A DNA stretch of 64,000 bases from Methanobrevibacter gottschalkii DSM 11977 (GCF_003814835.1 NZ_RKRG01000003.1:62001-126000); one strand, 5' to 3'; counted from the stretch's first letter, positions 33,122-40,628 are shown. Numbers and translations are program-made. The notes: generated from the letters alone by a model not told the origin.

Positions 33122-33184
33122 TAAAACTGTTTTTTAGGCATCACTAAATTTTTCCAAAACATTTATATGATAAAACAGTGTTAT

Positions 33185-33213
33185 ATATCAATAGTTATTA
33201 TAACAATAGTTAT
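33185..33213. promoter_or_regulatory. Two tandem ATAAC-N4-GTTAT operators upstream of cysK
   Basis: Copy a, ATATCAATAGTTAT at 33185-33198 (one half-site mismatch); copy b, ATAACAATAGTTAT at 33200-33213 (perfect half-sites), 15 bases apart. The same 14-mer form occurs upstream of the sulfhydrylase gene at 37.5-37.7 kb and once between cysK and cysE. The likely promoter AAGATAACCCTTTTAATATACC follows at 33223-33244. Confidence 0.7.
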
Positions 33214-33278
33214 ATAACTTTTAAGATAACCCTTTTAATATACCATTAAAAACAAATAATTTATTAGGTGAATAAAAT

Positions 33279-34226
33279 ATGGTAAATGTTCCAGAATTAA
33301 AAAGAGGAGTACTTGACAGTGTTGTTGATGCGATTGGAAACACACCAATCATAAAATTGAACAATTTGACTAAGGATTTGGATGCAGAAATTGATGTAAA
33401 GATGGAAGCATTCAACCCAACAGGCAGTGTAAAGGATCGTGTTGCTGTTGCAATGATTGAAGATGCAGAGGAAAAAGGATTGCTTAAAGATGATTCTGTA
33501 ATTATTGAACCAACTAGTGGAAATACTGGTATTGGAATAGGTTTTGCCGCCGCTGCAAAAGGTTATAATGTAATATTGACTATGCCTGAAACCATGTCTG
33601 TTGAAAGAAGAAAGCTTTTAGCTATCTATGGTGCTGAAATTGTATTGACTCCAGGTTCGGAAGGTATGGATGGAGCTATTGCAAAGGCAGAAGAATTACA
33701 CAGAGAAAATCCCAACTCAGTTATTTTAGGTCAATTTGATAATGAAGCTAATGTGGCCATACACTACAAAACAACTGGCCAGGAAATTTTAAGAGATACT
33801 GAAGGAAATGTTGATTATGTTGTTGCAGGGGTAGGTACTGGAGGTACTGTTACCGGCATTGGTAAAGCATTAAAAGAAGTTCTTCCTGATGTTAAGATTG
33901 TCGCTGTGGAACCTGAAGAATCACAAACATTGGCCAAGGGTGCAAAAGGACCTCATAAGATCCAGGGAATTGGTGCAGGATTTGTTCCGTCAATTTATGA
34001 TTCAGATGTTATTGATGAGATTATTCCAGTACCTAGTGATGAAGCAGGAAAAACTTTAATTGCTCTTGCTAAAGAAGAAGGTATCTTTGCAGGTATTTCT
34101 TCAGGAGCTGCTACTTGGGCTGCTTTACAATTGGCTATGCGTAAAGAAAATAAAGGTAAAAGAATTATTGCTATCTTACCGGATAATGGTGAAAGATATC
34201 TCTCTGTAGAATGGTTATTTGAATAA
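33279..34226 (+). CDS. cysK: Cysteine synthase (O-acetylserine sulfhydrylase)
   Basis: 315-residue PLP enzyme that makes cysteine from O-acetylserine and sulfide. PLP-lysine site NPTGSVKDRVAVAMIE, substrate loop PTSGNTGIGIGFAAAAKGY, phosphate-binding GVGTGGTVTGIGKAL, and GISSGAATWAALQLA at the C-terminus. Length and motifs match bacterial CysK. Followed by cysE, it gives a serine-to-cysteine route. Probably regulated by the ATAAC-N4-GTTAT sites in its promoter. Confidence 0.96.
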   Translation: MVNVPELKRGVLDSVVDAIGNTPIIKLNNLTKDLDAEIDVKMEAFNPTGSVKDRVAVAMIEDAEEKGLLKDDSVIIEPTSGNTGIGIGFAAAAKGYNVILTMPETMSVERRKLLAIYGAEIVLTPGSEGMDGAIAKAEELHRENPNSVILGQFDNEANVAIHYKTTGQEILRDTEGNVDYVVAGVGTGGTVTGIGKALKEVLPDVKIVAVEPEESQTLAKGAKGPHKIQGIGAGFVPSIYDSDVIDEIIPVPSDEAGKTLIALAKEEGIFAGISSGAATWAALQLAMRKENKGKRIIAILPDNGERYLSVEWLFE

Positions 34227-34238
34227 GATAACCTTTAT

Positions 34239-34252
34239 ATACCATATGTTAT
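34239..34252. promoter_or_regulatory. ATAAC-N4-GTTAT-like site between cysK and cysE
   Basis: ATACCATATGTTAT, one mismatch from the consensus. It overlaps AGATAACCTTTATATACCAT, which closely resembles the cysK promoter (AGATAACCCTTTTAATATACCAT). cysE may therefore have its own promoter with a similar operator, although only 63 bases separate the two genes. Confidence 0.55.
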
Positions 34253-34289
34253 ATAATTAGATGTATTAATTTATATTTGAGGTTTGCCG

Positions 34290-35003
34290 ATGTTTAATAA
34301 TTTGAGGGCTGAGATTAAAGCTATTAAGGAAAAGGATCCGGCGGCAAGGTCAACATTAGAAATTTTCTTATGTTACCCTGGATTTTATGCTTTATTGATG
34401 CATAGGATTAGTCATTGGCTTTGGAATCGTTCTTTAAAACTTCTCGCTCGTATGAATTCTAATTTAGCTAGATTTATAACGGGCATTGAAATTCACCCTG
34501 GTGCAACATTTGGTAAACGGGTGTTCATTGATCATGGTATGGGTGTTGTTGTTGGAGAAACAGCAATTGTAGGTGATGATGTATTGATTTATCAGGGAGT
34601 AATTCTTGGTGGAACCAGTACGGAAAAAACTAAAAGACATCCTACTGTTGAAAAAGGAGTTATTATTGGTGCTGGTGCTAAAGTAATGGGCAATATTACT
34701 ATTGGGGAATATTCTAAAATTGGTACTGGTGCTGTTGTTTTAAAGGATGTTCCTCCTGAATCTACTTGTGTCGGTGTTCCTGGTCGTATTGTGAAACGTA
34801 AAGGCGTACCTCATGAAAAAGTTGATTTAGATCACAATAAACTTCCAGACCCTGTTGCAGATGCGATTATTACTATTAATAAGCATCTTCAAGAAAATGA
34901 TGAGCATATTAAAATTTTGTTTGACAAAAATGAAATCTGTTTAACTGATGATATTAGGGATGAACAAGAAACCCTAGAAGATTTATTTAAAAGAGAGGAG
35001 TGA
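34290..35003 (+). CDS. cysE: Serine O-acetyltransferase
   Basis: 237-residue left-handed beta-helix acetyltransferase that makes O-acetylserine for CysK. Seen: the helical N-terminal part, [25 protein letters not shown] (catalytic His and hexapeptide repeats), [18 protein letters not shown], and [28 protein letters not shown] 34290 chosen over TTG 34284 because GAGGT lies six bases upstream. Longer C-terminal tail than usual. The next gene, a regulator, begins four bases downstream. Confidence 0.95.
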
Positions 35004-35007
35004 TTGT

Positions 35008-35382
35008 ATGAAACCGCCTTGTGAAATTGTAGTCTGGTATGTAATACCTGCTATTAGATCAGAATTAGCGAAAGAATTATTGAATTTAGGAATGAAACAA
35101 AAAGATGTTTCAGAACTTATGGATATTACTCAGCCAGCTGTATCCCAATATATTACTGACAAACGTGGCAGTGGAATTAAACTAGATGATAATGTTAGGG
35201 ACATGATTAAAAATTTTGCTCGCCAATTGTCTGTAGGTGAAGCTACTAAAGCTGATTTGATTTCAACAACATGTAAAATTTGTAATCATGTTAAATTATC
35301 TGACGTTTTAGATCAGCTTAATATTGACAAGTCTGAGCTTGGTGAAGATTGTCAATCTTGTTTGGGTTCTGAAGTAAATTAG
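35008..35382 (+). CDS. HTH regulator with C-terminal Cys motifs (COG2522-like)
   Basis: 124 residues. Helix-turn-helix: LGMKQKDVSELMDITQPAVSQYITDKRGSG (about 30-60). The C-terminus has two Cys pairs, CKIC and CQSC (about 90-117), suitable for an Fe-S cluster or metal sensor. Starts MKPPCEIVVWYVIPAIRSELAKEL, as in archaeal COG2522 proteins. Encoded directly after cysE with a Shine-Dalgarno GGAG, within the cysteine island. It is the natural candidate to read the ATAAC-N4-GTTAT sites and to sense sulfide, cysteine or Fe-S state. That link is inference. Confidence 0.8.
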   Translation: MKPPCEIVVWYVIPAIRSELAKELLNLGMKQKDVSELMDITQPAVSQYITDKRGSGIKLDDNVRDMIKNFARQLSVGEATKADLISTTCKICNHVKLSDVLDQLNIDKSELGEDCQSCLGSEVN

Positions 35383-35454
35383 GGAAATCAGGTAAAAAAT
35401 AGTAAAGTATTTATACAGTCAATTACTAATACTTTATTATACTTTAATTTTAAT

Positions 35455-35526
35455 GGCAAGTTTACCGAGTGGCTTAGGTGTGTGGCTGCAGACCATAATA
35501 CGGGGGTTCAAATCCCTCACTTGCCT
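35455..35526 (+). tRNA. tRNA-Cys (anticodon GCA)
   Basis: 72 bases. Acceptor stem GGCAAGT pairs with ACTTGCC. D-arm ACC-loop-GGT. Anticodon arm TGTGG CTGCAGA CCATA with anticodon GCA. The T-arm contains GGGTTCAAATCCC. Discriminator U73, as required for tRNA-Cys, with CCA not encoded. A TATA-like AGTATTTATACAG lies about 45 bases upstream. The gene for its own synthetase, cysS, starts 31 bases downstream. Confidence 0.97.
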
Positions 35527-35557
35527 TTTTTAAGTACTATTTTTGAGGTTATTTTTT

Positions 35558-36904
35558 ATGGATGTCTATTCAACTTTAACTCGTAGTAAGGAGAATTTTG
35601 TAACTATTAATAAAAATAGGGTTAACTTATTTGTATGCGGTCCAACTGTTTATGATGATGCTCATATTGGTCATGGAAGAACATACATTTCTTTTGATAC
35701 AATAAAAAGATATTTGGAATACAAGGGTTATGCAGTATTTTATATTCAAAATATTACAGATATTGATGATAAAATCATTAACAGATCAAAAGAAAGTGGA
35801 ATTCCAGCAAGCATCCTAGCTCGTAAATTCGAAAAAAGATACATTGAAGACATGCACAAATTAAATGTCAATGGTGTTAATTTATTTGCAAGAGCAACTG
35901 ATCATGTTGATGAAATATTGGATCAAATACAAAGATTAATTGATAAGGGATTTGCTTATGAAACTGAAGATGGGGTTTACTTTGAAATTGATAAATTCCC
36001 TGAATTTGGTAAACTTTCAAACAGAAACGTTGAAGAATTAGAATCACACAGAGATATTGTAGAAACTACTAAAAAGAATCCTCAAGATTTTGCACTTTGG
36101 AAAAAACGTATTGATGTAGATGAACCAACTTGGCCATCTCCATGGGGTGAAGGAAGACCTGGATGGCATATTGAAGATACTGCAATCACTGAATATTACT
36201 TTGGCTCTCAATATGATGCGCATGGTGGAGGATTAGATTTGATTTTCCCACATCACGAAGCTGAAATTACTCAAATGGAAGCAGTAAGCGGAAAAGCTCC
36301 AATGGTAAAATTCTGGTTACACACCGGATTTTTAAATGTTAATGGCGAAAAAATGTCAAAATCATTAAATAACTTCATTACCATACGTGAATTACTTGAA
36401 GATTATGAACCAGATACTTTCAGATTCTTCGTACTTTCAACTCATTATAGGAGTCCCATTGATTTTTCAAAAGAGTCACTTCACCAATCTGAAAAAAGCT
36501 TAGATAGAATTAGAAAATACTATGAACTTTTAGATGTTGAAGTTGATGAAAATAAATATGAATGTGATGTTTTAGCTCCTCACATGGAAGAATTTTTTAA
36601 TAGTATGGATGATGACTTTAACACTCCAAAAGCTATTGCAGCTATTTTTGGATTAATAAATGATACTAAAAAAGAATTATCTGAATTTTCTAGTGAAGAT
36701 AAGAGAGCTATTAAATCATTTTTAGATGATGCATCCCATATTTTTGGTGTTAGCTTTGAAGCTGAAGAAGTAAATGCTGGATTGGATGATTTGCTTAATG
36801 TAATTTCTGAAGTCAGATCAGAGTTAAGGGCAAGCAAACAGTATGATTTATCTGATAAAATTAGAGATGAGCTGCAAAAATTAGGTTATGAAATAAATGA
36901 TTAA
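35558..36904 (+). CDS. cysS: Cysteinyl-tRNA synthetase
   Basis: 448-residue class I enzyme that charges tRNA-Cys. HIGH motif GPTVYDDAHIGHGRTYIS, zinc-site Cys28-type CGPTVYD and HHEAE region, KMSKS motif NGEKMSKSLNNFIT, and PGWHIEDTAI. ATG 35558 is preferred over TTG 35543 because GAGGT lies eight bases before it. It lies directly downstream of the tRNA-Cys gene. The presence of CysS indicates direct charging rather than the SepRS/SepCysS route of many methanogens. Confidence 0.95.
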   Translation: MDVYSTLTRSKENFVTINKNRVNLFVCGPTVYDDAHIGHGRTYISFDTIKRYLEYKGYAVFYIQNITDIDDKIINRSKESGIPASILARKFEKRYIEDMHKLNVNGVNLFARATDHVDEILDQIQRLIDKGFAYETEDGVYFEIDKFPEFGKLSNRNVEELESHRDIVETTKKNPQDFALWKKRIDVDEPTWPSPWGEGRPGWHIEDTAITEYYFGSQYDAHGGGLDLIFPHHEAEITQMEAVSGKAPMVKFWLHTGFLNVNGEKMSKSLNNFITIRELLEDYEPDTFRFFVLSTHYRSPIDFSKESLHQSEKSLDRIRKYYELLDVEVDENKYECDVLAPHMEEFFNSMDDDFNTPKAIAAIFGLINDTKKELSEFSSEDKRAIKSFLDDASHIFGVSFEAEEVNAGLDDLLNVISEVRSELRASKQYDLSDKIRDELQKLGYEIND

Positions 36905-36930
36905 GAGAATTAATTTTTCTCTTTTCTTTT
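36904..36930 (+). terminator. Hairpin plus T-run terminator after cysS
   Basis: AGAGAA, TTAATTT loop, TTCTCT, followed by TTTTCTTTTTTA. A short stem with T-run right after the stop codon. Confidence 0.6.
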
Positions 36931-37704
36931 TTATCATGATTTTTCCAATATCTGACTGATATACCTGTACTGCATATATCTTTCTTTAATTTACTATAAT
37001 GCTTGTATTTATTTTAATAACTCCTATTTGATAGTATAAATGGTTATTTTATAATTTTAATTTGTTGGTTTTTTAATTCATGTAATTATTAATCATTATT
37101 TCTACAGTTTTAATTCTTCGCTTGCATTTTTTTAATTCAATATTTATCTAATTTTCACTGATCAAGTTTATAATGAAATCATTTGAAGACATATTATCGT
37201 TAAAACAAATTTTGGAAATTTAAAAAAGGATTTGTTTAGATTAGAGAAATAATGTTGAAAGTTCGGATATGGAAATTATTATTAGGTGTCCTGATTTTAT
37301 CCAAATCTTTTGAAAAAGAGATTATTTCAGAAGATACTGCAAATTCATTATGGATTGCTATGGTAAATAATGGTATACATTTGCCTAAAGATTTGTTTTT
37401 GGATTATTGTAGTAGACTTTATGAAATTGATTGTGAAAAGTTCTTAATGGATTATTTTTAATGATTTGTGTTATTTTAACAGATTATTAATTGTATATTA
37501 TTTTCACTTCTATTTTTTAGGTTAATAAAAACATTTATATATTCTAATAACACATGTTATATGTATATAACAATGGTTATAATTATTTTGGAATCCTTTA
37601 ATTTAGGTAAACCAAAACTTTTATATACTAAAAATAACTATTGTTATATAATAAATATAACACGTGACATATTTATGAAAATTAGATTATAAAGGTGATG
37701 ATTA
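36931..37704. other. Long spacer with decayed small gene and sulfhydrylase control region
   Basis: About 770 bases. 37173-37461 carries scraps of coding sequence: ATG 37173 MKSFEDILSLKQILEI then a stop, later frame pieces DMEIIIRCPDFIQIF, and in another frame SFEKEIISEDTANSLWIAMV to a stop at 37461. The last piece is a 69-codon open frame from 37252 but looks like one half of a broken gene. Bases 37540-37704 are the promoter region with four palindromes (next entry). Confidence 0.4.
37547..37670. promoter_or_regulatory. Four ATAAC-N4-GTTAT operators upstream of the sulfhydrylase gene
   Basis: ATAACACATGTTAT (37547-37560), ATAACAATGGTTAT (37567-37580), ATAACTATTGTTAT (37634-37647) and the weaker ATAACACGTGACAT (37657-37670). 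The first three have perfect half-sites. Copies 1 and 2 are 20 bases apart, about two helical turns. The TATA-like TTTATATACTAAAA at 37619-37632 lies between the pairs, so copies 3 and 4 sit near the transcription start. Confidence 0.75.
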
Positions 37705-39003
37705 ATGAATAATAAAGATTATGGTTTAGCAACATTAGGTGTACGTGCAGGTCAACAACCAGATCCTGCAACTGGGGCTCAAGCAGTTCCTATTTATCAG
37801 ACAACTTCATATGTATTTAAAGATGCAAGTGAAGCTGCTAGGAGATTCGCCCTTCAAGAGTTTGGTCAAATTTATTCCAGACTTACTAATCCTACCAGCG
37901 ATGTATTTGAAGCAAGAATAGCTGCTATTGAAGGTGGTAATTCAGGTCTTTCAACATCAAGTGGTCTTGCAGCAATTTCATATGCAATTTTAAATGTAAC
38001 TGGTCCTGGAGACAACATTGTTTCTGCCGACAACCTTTACGGCGGTACTTACCAATTATTTAACTATACTTTCAAAGATTTAGCACGTGAAGTCAAATTT
38101 GTAAATTCACAGGATTTGCAAGCTTTCGAAGATGCAATTGATGAAAAAACAAAAGCAATTTATGTGGAATCTATTGGTAATCCAAAATTAGATGTACCTG
38201 ACTTTGAAGCATTAGCAGAAATTGCACATTCTCATGATATTCCATTGATTGTGGATAACACGGTGGGTGTTGGATTAGTTAGGCCATTATTACACGGAGC
38301 TGATGTAATTGCTGCTTCTGCAACTAAATATGTTGGCGGTCATGGAACTGCTGTTGGAGGATATATTGTTGACTCCGGTAAATTTAACTGGGGTAATGGC
38401 AAGTTCGATAATTTCACAAAAGCAGATCCAAGTTATCATGGATTAGTATTTTGGGATGCATTTGGTGATGTTCCAGAATTGGGAAACATTGCATTTACTG
38501 TAAGAGCAAGGGCAAGACTTTTAAGAGATCTGGGAGCAACTCAAGCACCGGTACATAGCTTCATTTTCTTACAGGGACTTGAAAGTTTAGATGTACGTGT
38601 AAAAAGACATTCTGAAAATGCACTCAAAGTAGCTAAATTTTTAGAATCACATCCTAAAGTTAACTGGGTAAATTATCCTGGATTGGAATCTCATGCAACT
38701 TATGAAAATAATAAAAAATACTTAAAAAATCATTTTGCAGGTATCTTAGGATTTGGTGTTAAAGGTGGAGAGGAAGCAGGTAAAAAGGTCATTGAAAACT
38801 TAAAATTGTTCTCCATACTTGCAAACATTGGTGATGCAAAAAGTCTTGCAATACATCCTGCAAGTACAACACACCAGCAATTAACTCCTGAGGAACAGGA
38901 AGCAACAGGTGTAACACCTGATTTTATTAGGCTTTCTATTGGTTTGGAAGATGCTGATGATTTAATTGAAGATTTAAGTCAAGCTTTAGATTGTATTGAC
39001 TGA
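37705..39003 (+). CDS. O-acetylhomoserine sulfhydrylase-type PLP enzyme
   Basis: 432-residue Cys/Met metabolism PLP protein. Motifs: [36 protein letters not shown]-like segment, [21 protein letters not shown], and the PLP lysine in [17 protein letters not shown]. Length and the conserved C-terminus ([17 protein letters not shown]) match O-acetylhomoserine aminocarboxypropyltransferases (MetY/Met17), which make homocysteine from sulfide and an activated homoserine. Cystathionine gamma-synthase is less likely given the length. Four operator copies precede it. nifS/iscS follows by 46 bases. Confidence 0.9.
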
Positions 39004-39049
39004 TATCATAAGATAAAATTTAATTTATAAATATATTGGGAGATAAAGT

Positions 39050-40255
39050 ATGTATTTAGACAACTCAGCTACTACACAAGTTAGCAAAGAAGTTTTTGAA
39101 GAAATGAAACCATATTTCAGAGAAGAGTTTGGAAATCCTTCAACTCTTTATAAACTTGGTCGTGAATCTAAAAAAGCGTTAGATCAAGCTCGTCAAAGAG
39201 TGGCGAATGCCATTAATGCAAAGCCTGAGGAAATCTATTTCACCAGTGGTGGATCAGAGTCAGATAATTTGGCAATTAAAGGGATTGTTTTTAAATTAGC
39301 AAAAAAAGGTAAACATATAATCACAACTGAAATCGAACATCCTGCTGTCAAAAGGACTTTACAATTCTTGGAGTCTTTGGATTTTAAAGTCACTTATCTG
39401 CCGGTTTATGAAAATGGCATTATTAAAATTGACGACTTGAAGGAAGCTATTACTGATGAAACTATTTTAATTAGTGTCATGCATGGTAATAATGAACTCG
39501 GCACCATACAGCCAATTGAAGAAATCGGTAAGGTTGCTCGTGAAAAAGGAATTAATTTTCATACCGATGCAGTTCAAACTTTCGGTAAAATTGAAGTTGA
39601 TGTTGAAAAATTAAATGTGGATTTGCTTGCTTTATCTTCTCATAAAATCAATGGACCAAAAGGTGTCGGAGCATTATATATCAAAAAAGGAACTCGTTTA
39701 GAACCGTTAATTCATGGTGGAGGTCAGGAAAAAGGAATTCGCTCCGGTACTGAAAATGTCCCTGGAATTGTTGGATTTGGAAAAGCATGTGAATTAGCAG
39801 CAGATCAACTTGATGAACACTATGAAAAGTTAACATCAATCAGAAATGAAATCTCTGATAAAATATTAAATACTATTCCTGAAGCTTATTTAAATGGTGA
39901 TGCAGAAAAAAGATTGCCGAATCTACTTAATTTCAGATTTAAAGCTATTGAAGGTGAATCTTTAATTTTACTGCTTGATGCAAAAGGTTATCAGGCTTCA
40001 ACTGGATCTGCATGTTCTTCTAATACATTAGAAGCATCCCCAGTTTTAACAGCATTAGGATTGGATCCTGTTGATGTACATGGATCACTTAGAATATCCC
40101 TTGCTCCTGAAAGTGAAGAATTTGATGTAGATGATTTTGTTAATACTGTTGCCGAATCAGTTGCAAGATTAAGAGAAATGTCACCACTCTGGAATCAGGA
40201 AATTGATTATGATGGTGTAATGTGTAGAAAAAATGATAATTGTAAAAGGTGTTAA
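39050..40255 (+). CDS. Cysteine desulfurase (NifS/IscS type)
   Basis: 401-residue PLP enzyme that takes sulfur from cysteine for Fe-S cluster assembly. MYLDNSATTQVSKEV at the start, FTSGGSESDNLAIKG, PLP lysine in LLALSSHKINGPKG, GGGQEKGIRSGTENVPGI, and the sulfur-accepting Cys in STGSACSSNTLEASPVL. The C-terminus is unusual, ending with four Cys (VMCRKNDNCKRC), reminiscent of a small metal or persulfide site. Its stop is one base before the iscU start, so the pair is co-translated. Confidence 0.93.
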   Translation: MYLDNSATTQVSKEVFEEMKPYFREEFGNPSTLYKLGRESKKALDQARQRVANAINAKPEEIYFTSGGSESDNLAIKGIVFKLAKKGKHIITTEIEHPAVKRTLQFLESLDFKVTYLPVYENGIIKIDDLKEAITDETILISVMHGNNELGTIQPIEEIGKVAREKGINFHTDAVQTFGKIEVDVEKLNVDLLALSSHKINGPKGVGALYIKKGTRLEPLIHGGGQEKGIRSGTENVPGIVGFGKACELAADQLDEHYEKLTSIRNEISDKILNTIPEAYLNGDAEKRLPNLLNFRFKAIEGESLILLLDAKGYQASTGSACSSNTLEASPVLTALGLDPVDVHGSLRISLAPESEEFDVDDFVNTVAESVARLREMSPLWNQEIDYDGVMCRKNDNCKRC

Positions 40256-40256
40256 T

Positions 40257-40628
40257 ATGGATTATTCAGAAAAAGTAATGGATCATTTCGCAAATCCAAG
40301 AAATAGTAGGAAAATGGAAGATGCAAATGGGGTTGGAACTGTTGGAAACCCGACATGTGGAGACTTAATGACAATTTATATTAAAGTTGAAGATAACATT
40401 ATTAAAGATATTTCATTCCAAACATTTGGTTGCGGTGCAGCAATTGCAACAAGTAGTATGATTACTGAAATTGCTGTTGGAAAAACATTAGAGGAAGCAT
40501 TAAAAATCTCAAGAAATGATGTTGCAGAAGAATTGGATGGGCTTCCACCAGTTAAAATGCACTGTTCAAACCTTGCTGCTGATGGTCTTCAAGCTGCTAT
40601 CGAAAACTATTATGAAAACAATCAATAA
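40257..40628 (+). CDS. iscU: Iron-sulfur cluster scaffold protein IscU/NifU-N
   Basis: 123-residue scaffold on which Fe-S clusters are built. Three conserved Cys: NPTCGD, FGCGAA and MHCSNLA. The start MDYSEKVMDHFANPRNSRKM is typical. ATG 40257 chosen because AGGTG precedes it at five bases; the in-frame ATG at 40233 lies inside nifS. Partner of the upstream desulfurase. Confidence 0.95.
   Translation: MDYSEKVMDHFANPRNSRKMEDANGVGTVGNPTCGDLMTIYIKVEDNIIKDISFQTFGCGAAIATSSMITEIAVGKTLEEALKISRNDVAEELDGLPPVKMHCSNLAADGLQAAIENYYENNQ

Follow-up and report, generated by a model that had tools for sequence, protein, structure and literature searches.

SurR of the Thermococcales is an ArsR-like protein that recognizes GTTTn3AAC and regulates energy metabolism based on hydrogen and elemental sulfur rather than sulfur assimilation, and MsvR carries a V4R domain and binds a TTCG-type site. 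SurR has been described as an archaeal, sulfur-responsive, cysteine-based transcription regulator, and MsvR as a methanogen regulator featuring cysteine-dependent DNA binding and involved in redox and oxidative-stress regulation (PMC7278568). The candidate regulator of this study, a short helix-turn-helix (HTH) protein, resembles SurR in being archaeal and cysteine-bearing, its response to sulfur being deduced from its targets. However, SurR is ArsR-like and the candidate is probably of the HTH_3 type (an ArsR-type HTH_5 domain scored only 14.2 bits, below the cut-off of 22, and HTH_3 is preferred), and the operator proposed here, TAACnATnGTTA, differs from GTTTn3AAC. In contrast to MsvR, the candidate has no V4R match in Pfam, and a ThiR-type C-terminal ThiN domain was not matched within its total length of 124 aa. 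The bacterial regulons of CymR, CysB, and CmbR, which are of the Rrf2 or LysR type, follow the same logic, with a single regulator governing the genes for cysteine, methionine, and sulfur sources, but the proteins are unrelated to the candidate and their operators and transcription machinery are different. The iron–sulfur repressors IscR and SufR, belonging to HTH families other than that of the candidate, offer a possible analogy in their cluster-ligating cysteines and nifS-type targets, a cluster in the candidate being only a guess. Searches of open-access papers revealed no sulfur-assimilation regulator described for methanogenic archaea, and shared sulfur control in gut methanogens, which dominate methane production in the rumen and the human gut, has apparently been undescribed so far.

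The locus is located in a 64-kb stretch of DNA, the whole of which was analysed and is referred to as the window. The genes cysK, cysE, HTH, tRNA-Cys, cysS, metY, nifS, and nifU form one cysteine/sulfur island (window positions 33279-40628), followed by a desulfoferrodoxin gene. The following members were characterized:

33279..34226, + strand: cysK, cysteine synthase A (TIGR01139, 429 bits, above cut-off)
34290..35003, + strand: cysE, serine O-acetyltransferase (TIGR01172, 246 bits, above cut-off)
35008..35382, + strand: candidate regulator of 124 aa with an HTH_3-type helix-turn-helix (Pfam HTH_3) around residues 21-53
35455..35526, + strand: tRNA-Cys, anticodon gca (ARAGORN; Rfam RF00005)
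35558..36904, + strand: cysS, cysteinyl-tRNA synthetase (assigned by inspection from sequence and synteny)
37705..39003, + strand: metY, O-acetylhomoserine sulfhydrylase (TIGR01326, 625 bits, above cut-off)

The tRNA-Cys gene between the HTH gene and cysS was absent from the earlier, sequence-only reading of this DNA. A small ORF (37252-37461, 69 aa) located between cysS and metY had no match in Pfam or NCBIfam.

The sequence-only reading had listed seven copies of the palindrome ATAAC-N4-GTTAT in this region, each of which was found in place by direct reading of the window. As it had also reported, four of the seven have perfect half-sites (33200, 37547, 37567, and 37634); one mismatch is present at 33185 and 34239, and two at 37657. 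These four are the only exact copies within the window, all located upstream of cysK or metY, compared to an expectation of 0.22 per 64 kb and, at the base composition of the local intergenic DNA, of approximately 0.002 within it. On the same basis, the chance of finding four exact copies in this AT-rich intergenic DNA (829 bp) is approximately 8e-13. When two mismatches were allowed, the window count was only mildly enriched (92 vs. 68.7 +/- 7.6), indicating that loose matches carry little meaning. All window positions were ranked by means of a scoring matrix built from 187 intergenic sites of the family, with the following results:

33185..33198, no strand: operator ATATCAATAGTTAT of cysK, one mismatch, matrix rank 4 in 64 kb
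33200..33213, no strand: operator ATAACAATAGTTAT of cysK, exact, matrix rank 1, conserved upstream of cysK across genera
34239..34252, no strand: possible operator ATACCATATGTTAT, weak, matrix rank 13, overlaps the TATA box of cysE
37547..37560, no strand: operator ATAACACATGTTAT, exact half-sites, atypical spacer, matrix rank 6
37567..37580, no strand: operator ATAACAATGGTTAT, exact, matrix rank 3
37634..37647, no strand: operator ATAACTATTGTTAT, exact, matrix rank 2

The sites at 33185, 33200, 37567, and 37634 are strong, the one at 37547 is moderate, and the one at 34239 is weak, although roughly half of the loci from the same genus have a similar sequence at this position. The operators at 33185 and 33200 form a 15 bp direct repeat. 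The remaining palindrome (37657-37670) was unsupported as a copy of the motif and was dropped as an operator, because its matrix rank was only 117 among the window positions.

Genome-wide counts were obtained by pattern searches of genomes plus targeted stretches. In the window's own genome, the exact motif occurs 13 times, including the four copies in the window; further intergenic copies precede feoB, an ABC binding protein gene, comA, and moaE, another one precedes an adhesin-like gene, and the four coding copies are all devoid of the nATn spacer described below. The genome scan with one mismatch allowed, as suggested by the sequence-only reading, revealed no enrichment of the unrefined motif in this genome (203 vs. 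366), so that global enrichment of the loose form was rejected there; the refined form, however, is enriched in relatives. Since WTAACnATnGTTAW is likewise not enriched in the window's genome (9 vs. 8), the case for this genome rests on location and conservation.

Comparison with relatives fixed the spacer, leading to the refined operator WTAACnATnGTTAW. The constraint of the spacer to nATn and the placement of the sites just downstream of TATA boxes are features absent from the sequence-only reading. Positions 7-8 of the operator were set by the search pattern and hence are not independent evidence, as opposed to the flanking preferences, which are independent; the refinement data included the window's family, whereas the figures for enrichment, location, and targets in other genera were obtained only once the pattern had been refined. 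Enumeration in 13 genomes representing six genera yielded 206 sites, 187 of them (91%) being intergenic, compared to 2 out of 17 sampled sites of a reversed-pattern control (Fisher p ~3e-12), and no sulfur genes were found among the neighbours of these 17 control sites. Within 112 genomes encoding the HTH gene (≥80% complete), 897 sites of ATAACnATnGTTAT were counted vs. 137 reversed-pattern controls, with counts above the control in 107 genomes. Among the loci of the genome collection, the refined operator was located at most 360 bp upstream of 46 out of 49 cysK genes having at least 200 bp of upstream sequence, so the motif is conserved in relatives, and exact sites upstream of cysK were also detected in other genera. 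The sites are not scattered at random over AT-rich intergenic DNA, as orthologous sulfur genes recur downstream of them. We consider it rather likely that a sulfur regulon of the Methanobrevibacter/Methanosphaera family uses WTAACnATnGTTAW as its operator and the HTH protein as its repressor, the operator, its targets, its conservation, and its position relative to the TATA box being direct observations.

The HTH protein occurs family-wide and reaches 23.5 bits for Pfam HTH_3 (cut-off 23), while two distant orthologues score 19.2 and 18.7 bits, below the cut-off; none of the NCBIfam models matched the protein. Cysteines 5, 89, 92, 115, and 118 are invariant (alignment A1), as are the recognition-helix residues TQPAVSQY, and the operator is likewise invariant. 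The predicted model is all helical (mean pLDDT 82, pTM 0.78); a Foldseek search with this model gave no match at E ≤ 0.001, with many of the weak best hits being XRE-type, and no significant solved relatives were obtained by sequence or by fold. A possible name for the family is COG2522, for which no pertinent paper was found in the open-access literature. In G117, the HTH gene is present twice; the additional copy (L059 8505-8885, - strand; 60% identical to the window protein) is distant from cysKE and has no operator nearby.

The HTH gene adjoins cysE or cysK in 62 out of 80 loci, and in G004 and three g6 genomes it has operators of its own upstream. Based on this linkage and on co-occurrence, the HTH protein is probably the regulator acting on the operator. 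Alternatively, operator and regulon may be real while a different family-wide transcription factor binds, the HTH protein being a neighbour with another target. This would fit the observation that most HTH genes have no operator directly upstream (although in the window's arrangement the gene follows cysK-cysE), and that operators persist in several genera in which HTH gene and cysKE are not linked; in the Methanosphaera-type genomes (g12), for example, the operator is found beside cysKE and the HTH gene is not. Some genomes also possess the HTH gene without operators. G086 encodes HTH and cysK and has no operator, one cysK of G051 is without operator, and no enrichment was detected in G081, G012, G102, and G106. 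Across the phylum (genomes ≥80% complete), the 20 genomes without a detected HTH gene harbour 35 sites vs. 10 controls, but 31 of these sites belong to four family members with incomplete assemblies (G024, G067, G042, and G054; 81-87% complete). Missing contigs may explain these operators as well as the one site retained in G001, which lies between fdhD and a divergently oriented GMC oxidoreductase gene. HTH gene and operator enrichment are jointly absent in G113 (a family member, 91% complete; 0 sites vs. 3 controls) and in the sister families f2 and f3 (12 genomes with a single site in all), which, together with the linkage to cysE or cysK and the operators ahead of the HTH gene itself, makes binding by another factor unlikely. 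However, no cysK orthologue was found where sought in genomes without HTH gene (G113, G121, G129, and G131), and since both genes are absent together, co-occurrence cannot separate regulator from target.

Target genes, i.e., the genes behind the sites, were grouped by orthology in the 13 genomes from six genera; because genomes from the same genus are not independent of each other, counting genera is safer than counting genomes. Pyridoxal-phosphate (PLP) enzymes of cysteine and methionine metabolism, mainly metY, are targets in all 13 genomes, followed by cysK (12/13), an SsuA-type binding protein gene (9/13), moaE and fdhD (7/13 each), a MoeB/ThiF-like adenylyltransferase and a GMC oxidoreductase (6/13 each), cysE, nifS, and a class II glutamine amidotransferase (5/13 each), larE and a ThiS-like carrier (4/13 each), pyridoxamine kinase (3/13), and thiI (2/13). 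These groups recur between genera, as does a methylthio-alkane-reductase-like operon, and feoB (four genomes) and comA (three genomes) recur within the window's genus. After comA, the window's genome encodes a match to marker 16 (TIGR03287, 295 bits, a score that covers a partial sequence and is below the full-length cut-off of 364), marker 16 being the main coenzyme M synthase reported in Methanosarcina (PMC12068725). The regulon is wider than the sequence-only reading proposed: besides the sulfide-fixing enzymes, it comprises sulfur trafficking and the synthesis of coenzyme M, with sulfonate uptake as a probable further part. In this way, coenzyme M synthesis, a sulfonate-type transporter, and the cysteine pathway are tied to one control, and operator sites provide functional predictions for the uncharacterized genes behind them.

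One of the genes behind an operator encodes an SsuA-family binding protein of the aliphatic sulfonate type (L004 1593-2564, above cut-off), a possible importer of coenzyme M or taurine. GMC-type FAD oxidoreductases featuring a 4Fe-4S motif were identified at L069 1565-2770 and in L089, L113, and L282. Nitrogenase-like operons were also located behind sulfur operators (L102 157-1827, - strand; L245 436-1995, - strand; L113 4694-6599, + strand). The NifD-like protein of L102 scored only 150 bits against the nitrogenase cut-off of 486, and its best solved relatives are methylthio-alkane reductase MarD (PDB 9FMG) and 9D9U (239.5 bits each), the next nitrogenase chain reaching 106 bits. These scores suggest that methanogens may possess a C-S lyase for sulfur salvage.

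The composition of the target set suggests that the signal is likely sulfur status. An unlikely alternative is iron or iron–sulfur status, redox, or molybdenum-cofactor demand in place of sulfur supply, as could be proposed from the presence of feoB, nifS, fdhD, moaE, and the GMC oxidoreductase with its 4Fe-4S motif among the targets. The commonest targets, however, are sulfide-fixing enzymes, and coenzyme M synthesis, the SsuA-type protein, and the methylthio-alkane-reductase-like operon are targets as well, sulfur being common to all of them.

The arrangement of the promoters bears on the mode of control. Archaeal TATA boxes are located approximately 25-30 bp before the transcription start. 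Within 13-24 bp upstream of the operator, TTTATATA was observed 22 times vs. 2.0 expected, with exactly 14 bp being the commonest offset. The following TATA boxes were assigned in the window:

33162..33169, + strand: TATA box TTTATATG of the cysK promoter, starting 23 bp before operator 33185
37534..37541, + strand: metY TATA box 1, TTTATATA, 13 bp before operator 37547, within the enriched offset range
37620..37627, + strand: metY TATA box 2, TTTATATA, 14 bp before operator 37634, the commonest family-wide offset

Accordingly, metY features two TATA/operator promoters, and the 23-bp offset of cysK is one of the offset classes found family-wide. Because the operator occupies the region between TATA box and start, repression is favoured, and the mode of control is probably repression. 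Some operators are located far upstream of, or before, the TATA-like sequence, as would be expected if the protein were an activator, or an activator or repressor depending on site position; this is quite improbable, since a protein bound to the main operator class, 13-24 bp past the TATA start, would prevent the transcription complex from assembling. In close operator pairs, the most frequent distances between the two starts are 14-15 and 19-21 bp, as would suit two adjacent dimers. Bacterial sigma-70 promoters were rejected (26 vs. 27 expected), also not being the archaeal promoter type, and a known RNA element was dismissed as Rfam finds tRNA only.

In the repressor model, the 124-aa HTH protein would bind the palindrome in dimeric form, in many cases occupying two or more sites, and, positioned between TATA box and transcription start, would repress when sulfur is plentiful. 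C89, C92, C115, and C118, together with C5, might hold a metal or an iron–sulfur cluster or react with sulfur species, a metal or iron–sulfur site at the first four being the simplest guess; sensing through the cysteine cluster is conceivable, albeit tentative. Sulfur shortage would release the protein from DNA and switch on its targets: cysK, cysE, and metY for sulfide fixation, comA and marker 16 for coenzyme M synthesis, the sulfonate-type binding protein, and nifS, moaE, the MoeB/ThiF-like protein, fdhD, larE, and thiI for sulfur delivery. It is possible, but somewhat speculative, that an undescribed archaeal regulator family with a short HTH and a four-cysteine sensor governs the whole sulfur supply of gut methanogens, from sulfide fixation, coenzyme M synthesis, and sulfonate uptake to the nitrogenase-like C-S lyase and sulfur delivery. 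Together with the operator, the candidate protein and the list of targets from six genera lend themselves to quick testing.

That the sites are chance AT-rich palindromes or extended TATA elements serving no regulator is extremely improbable: the motif is AT-rich and its loose versions are common, but this reading is contradicted by the reversed-pattern control, the intergenic bias, the low chance expectation, and the recurrence of orthologous targets across genera.

Just upstream of cysK in G086, a repeat-rich stretch was observed (L280 1-1750), with repeated peptides such as SRNPYFIGILSA and SQSLFYWNPFCNK encoded in its reading frames; this stretch may represent a CRISPR array.
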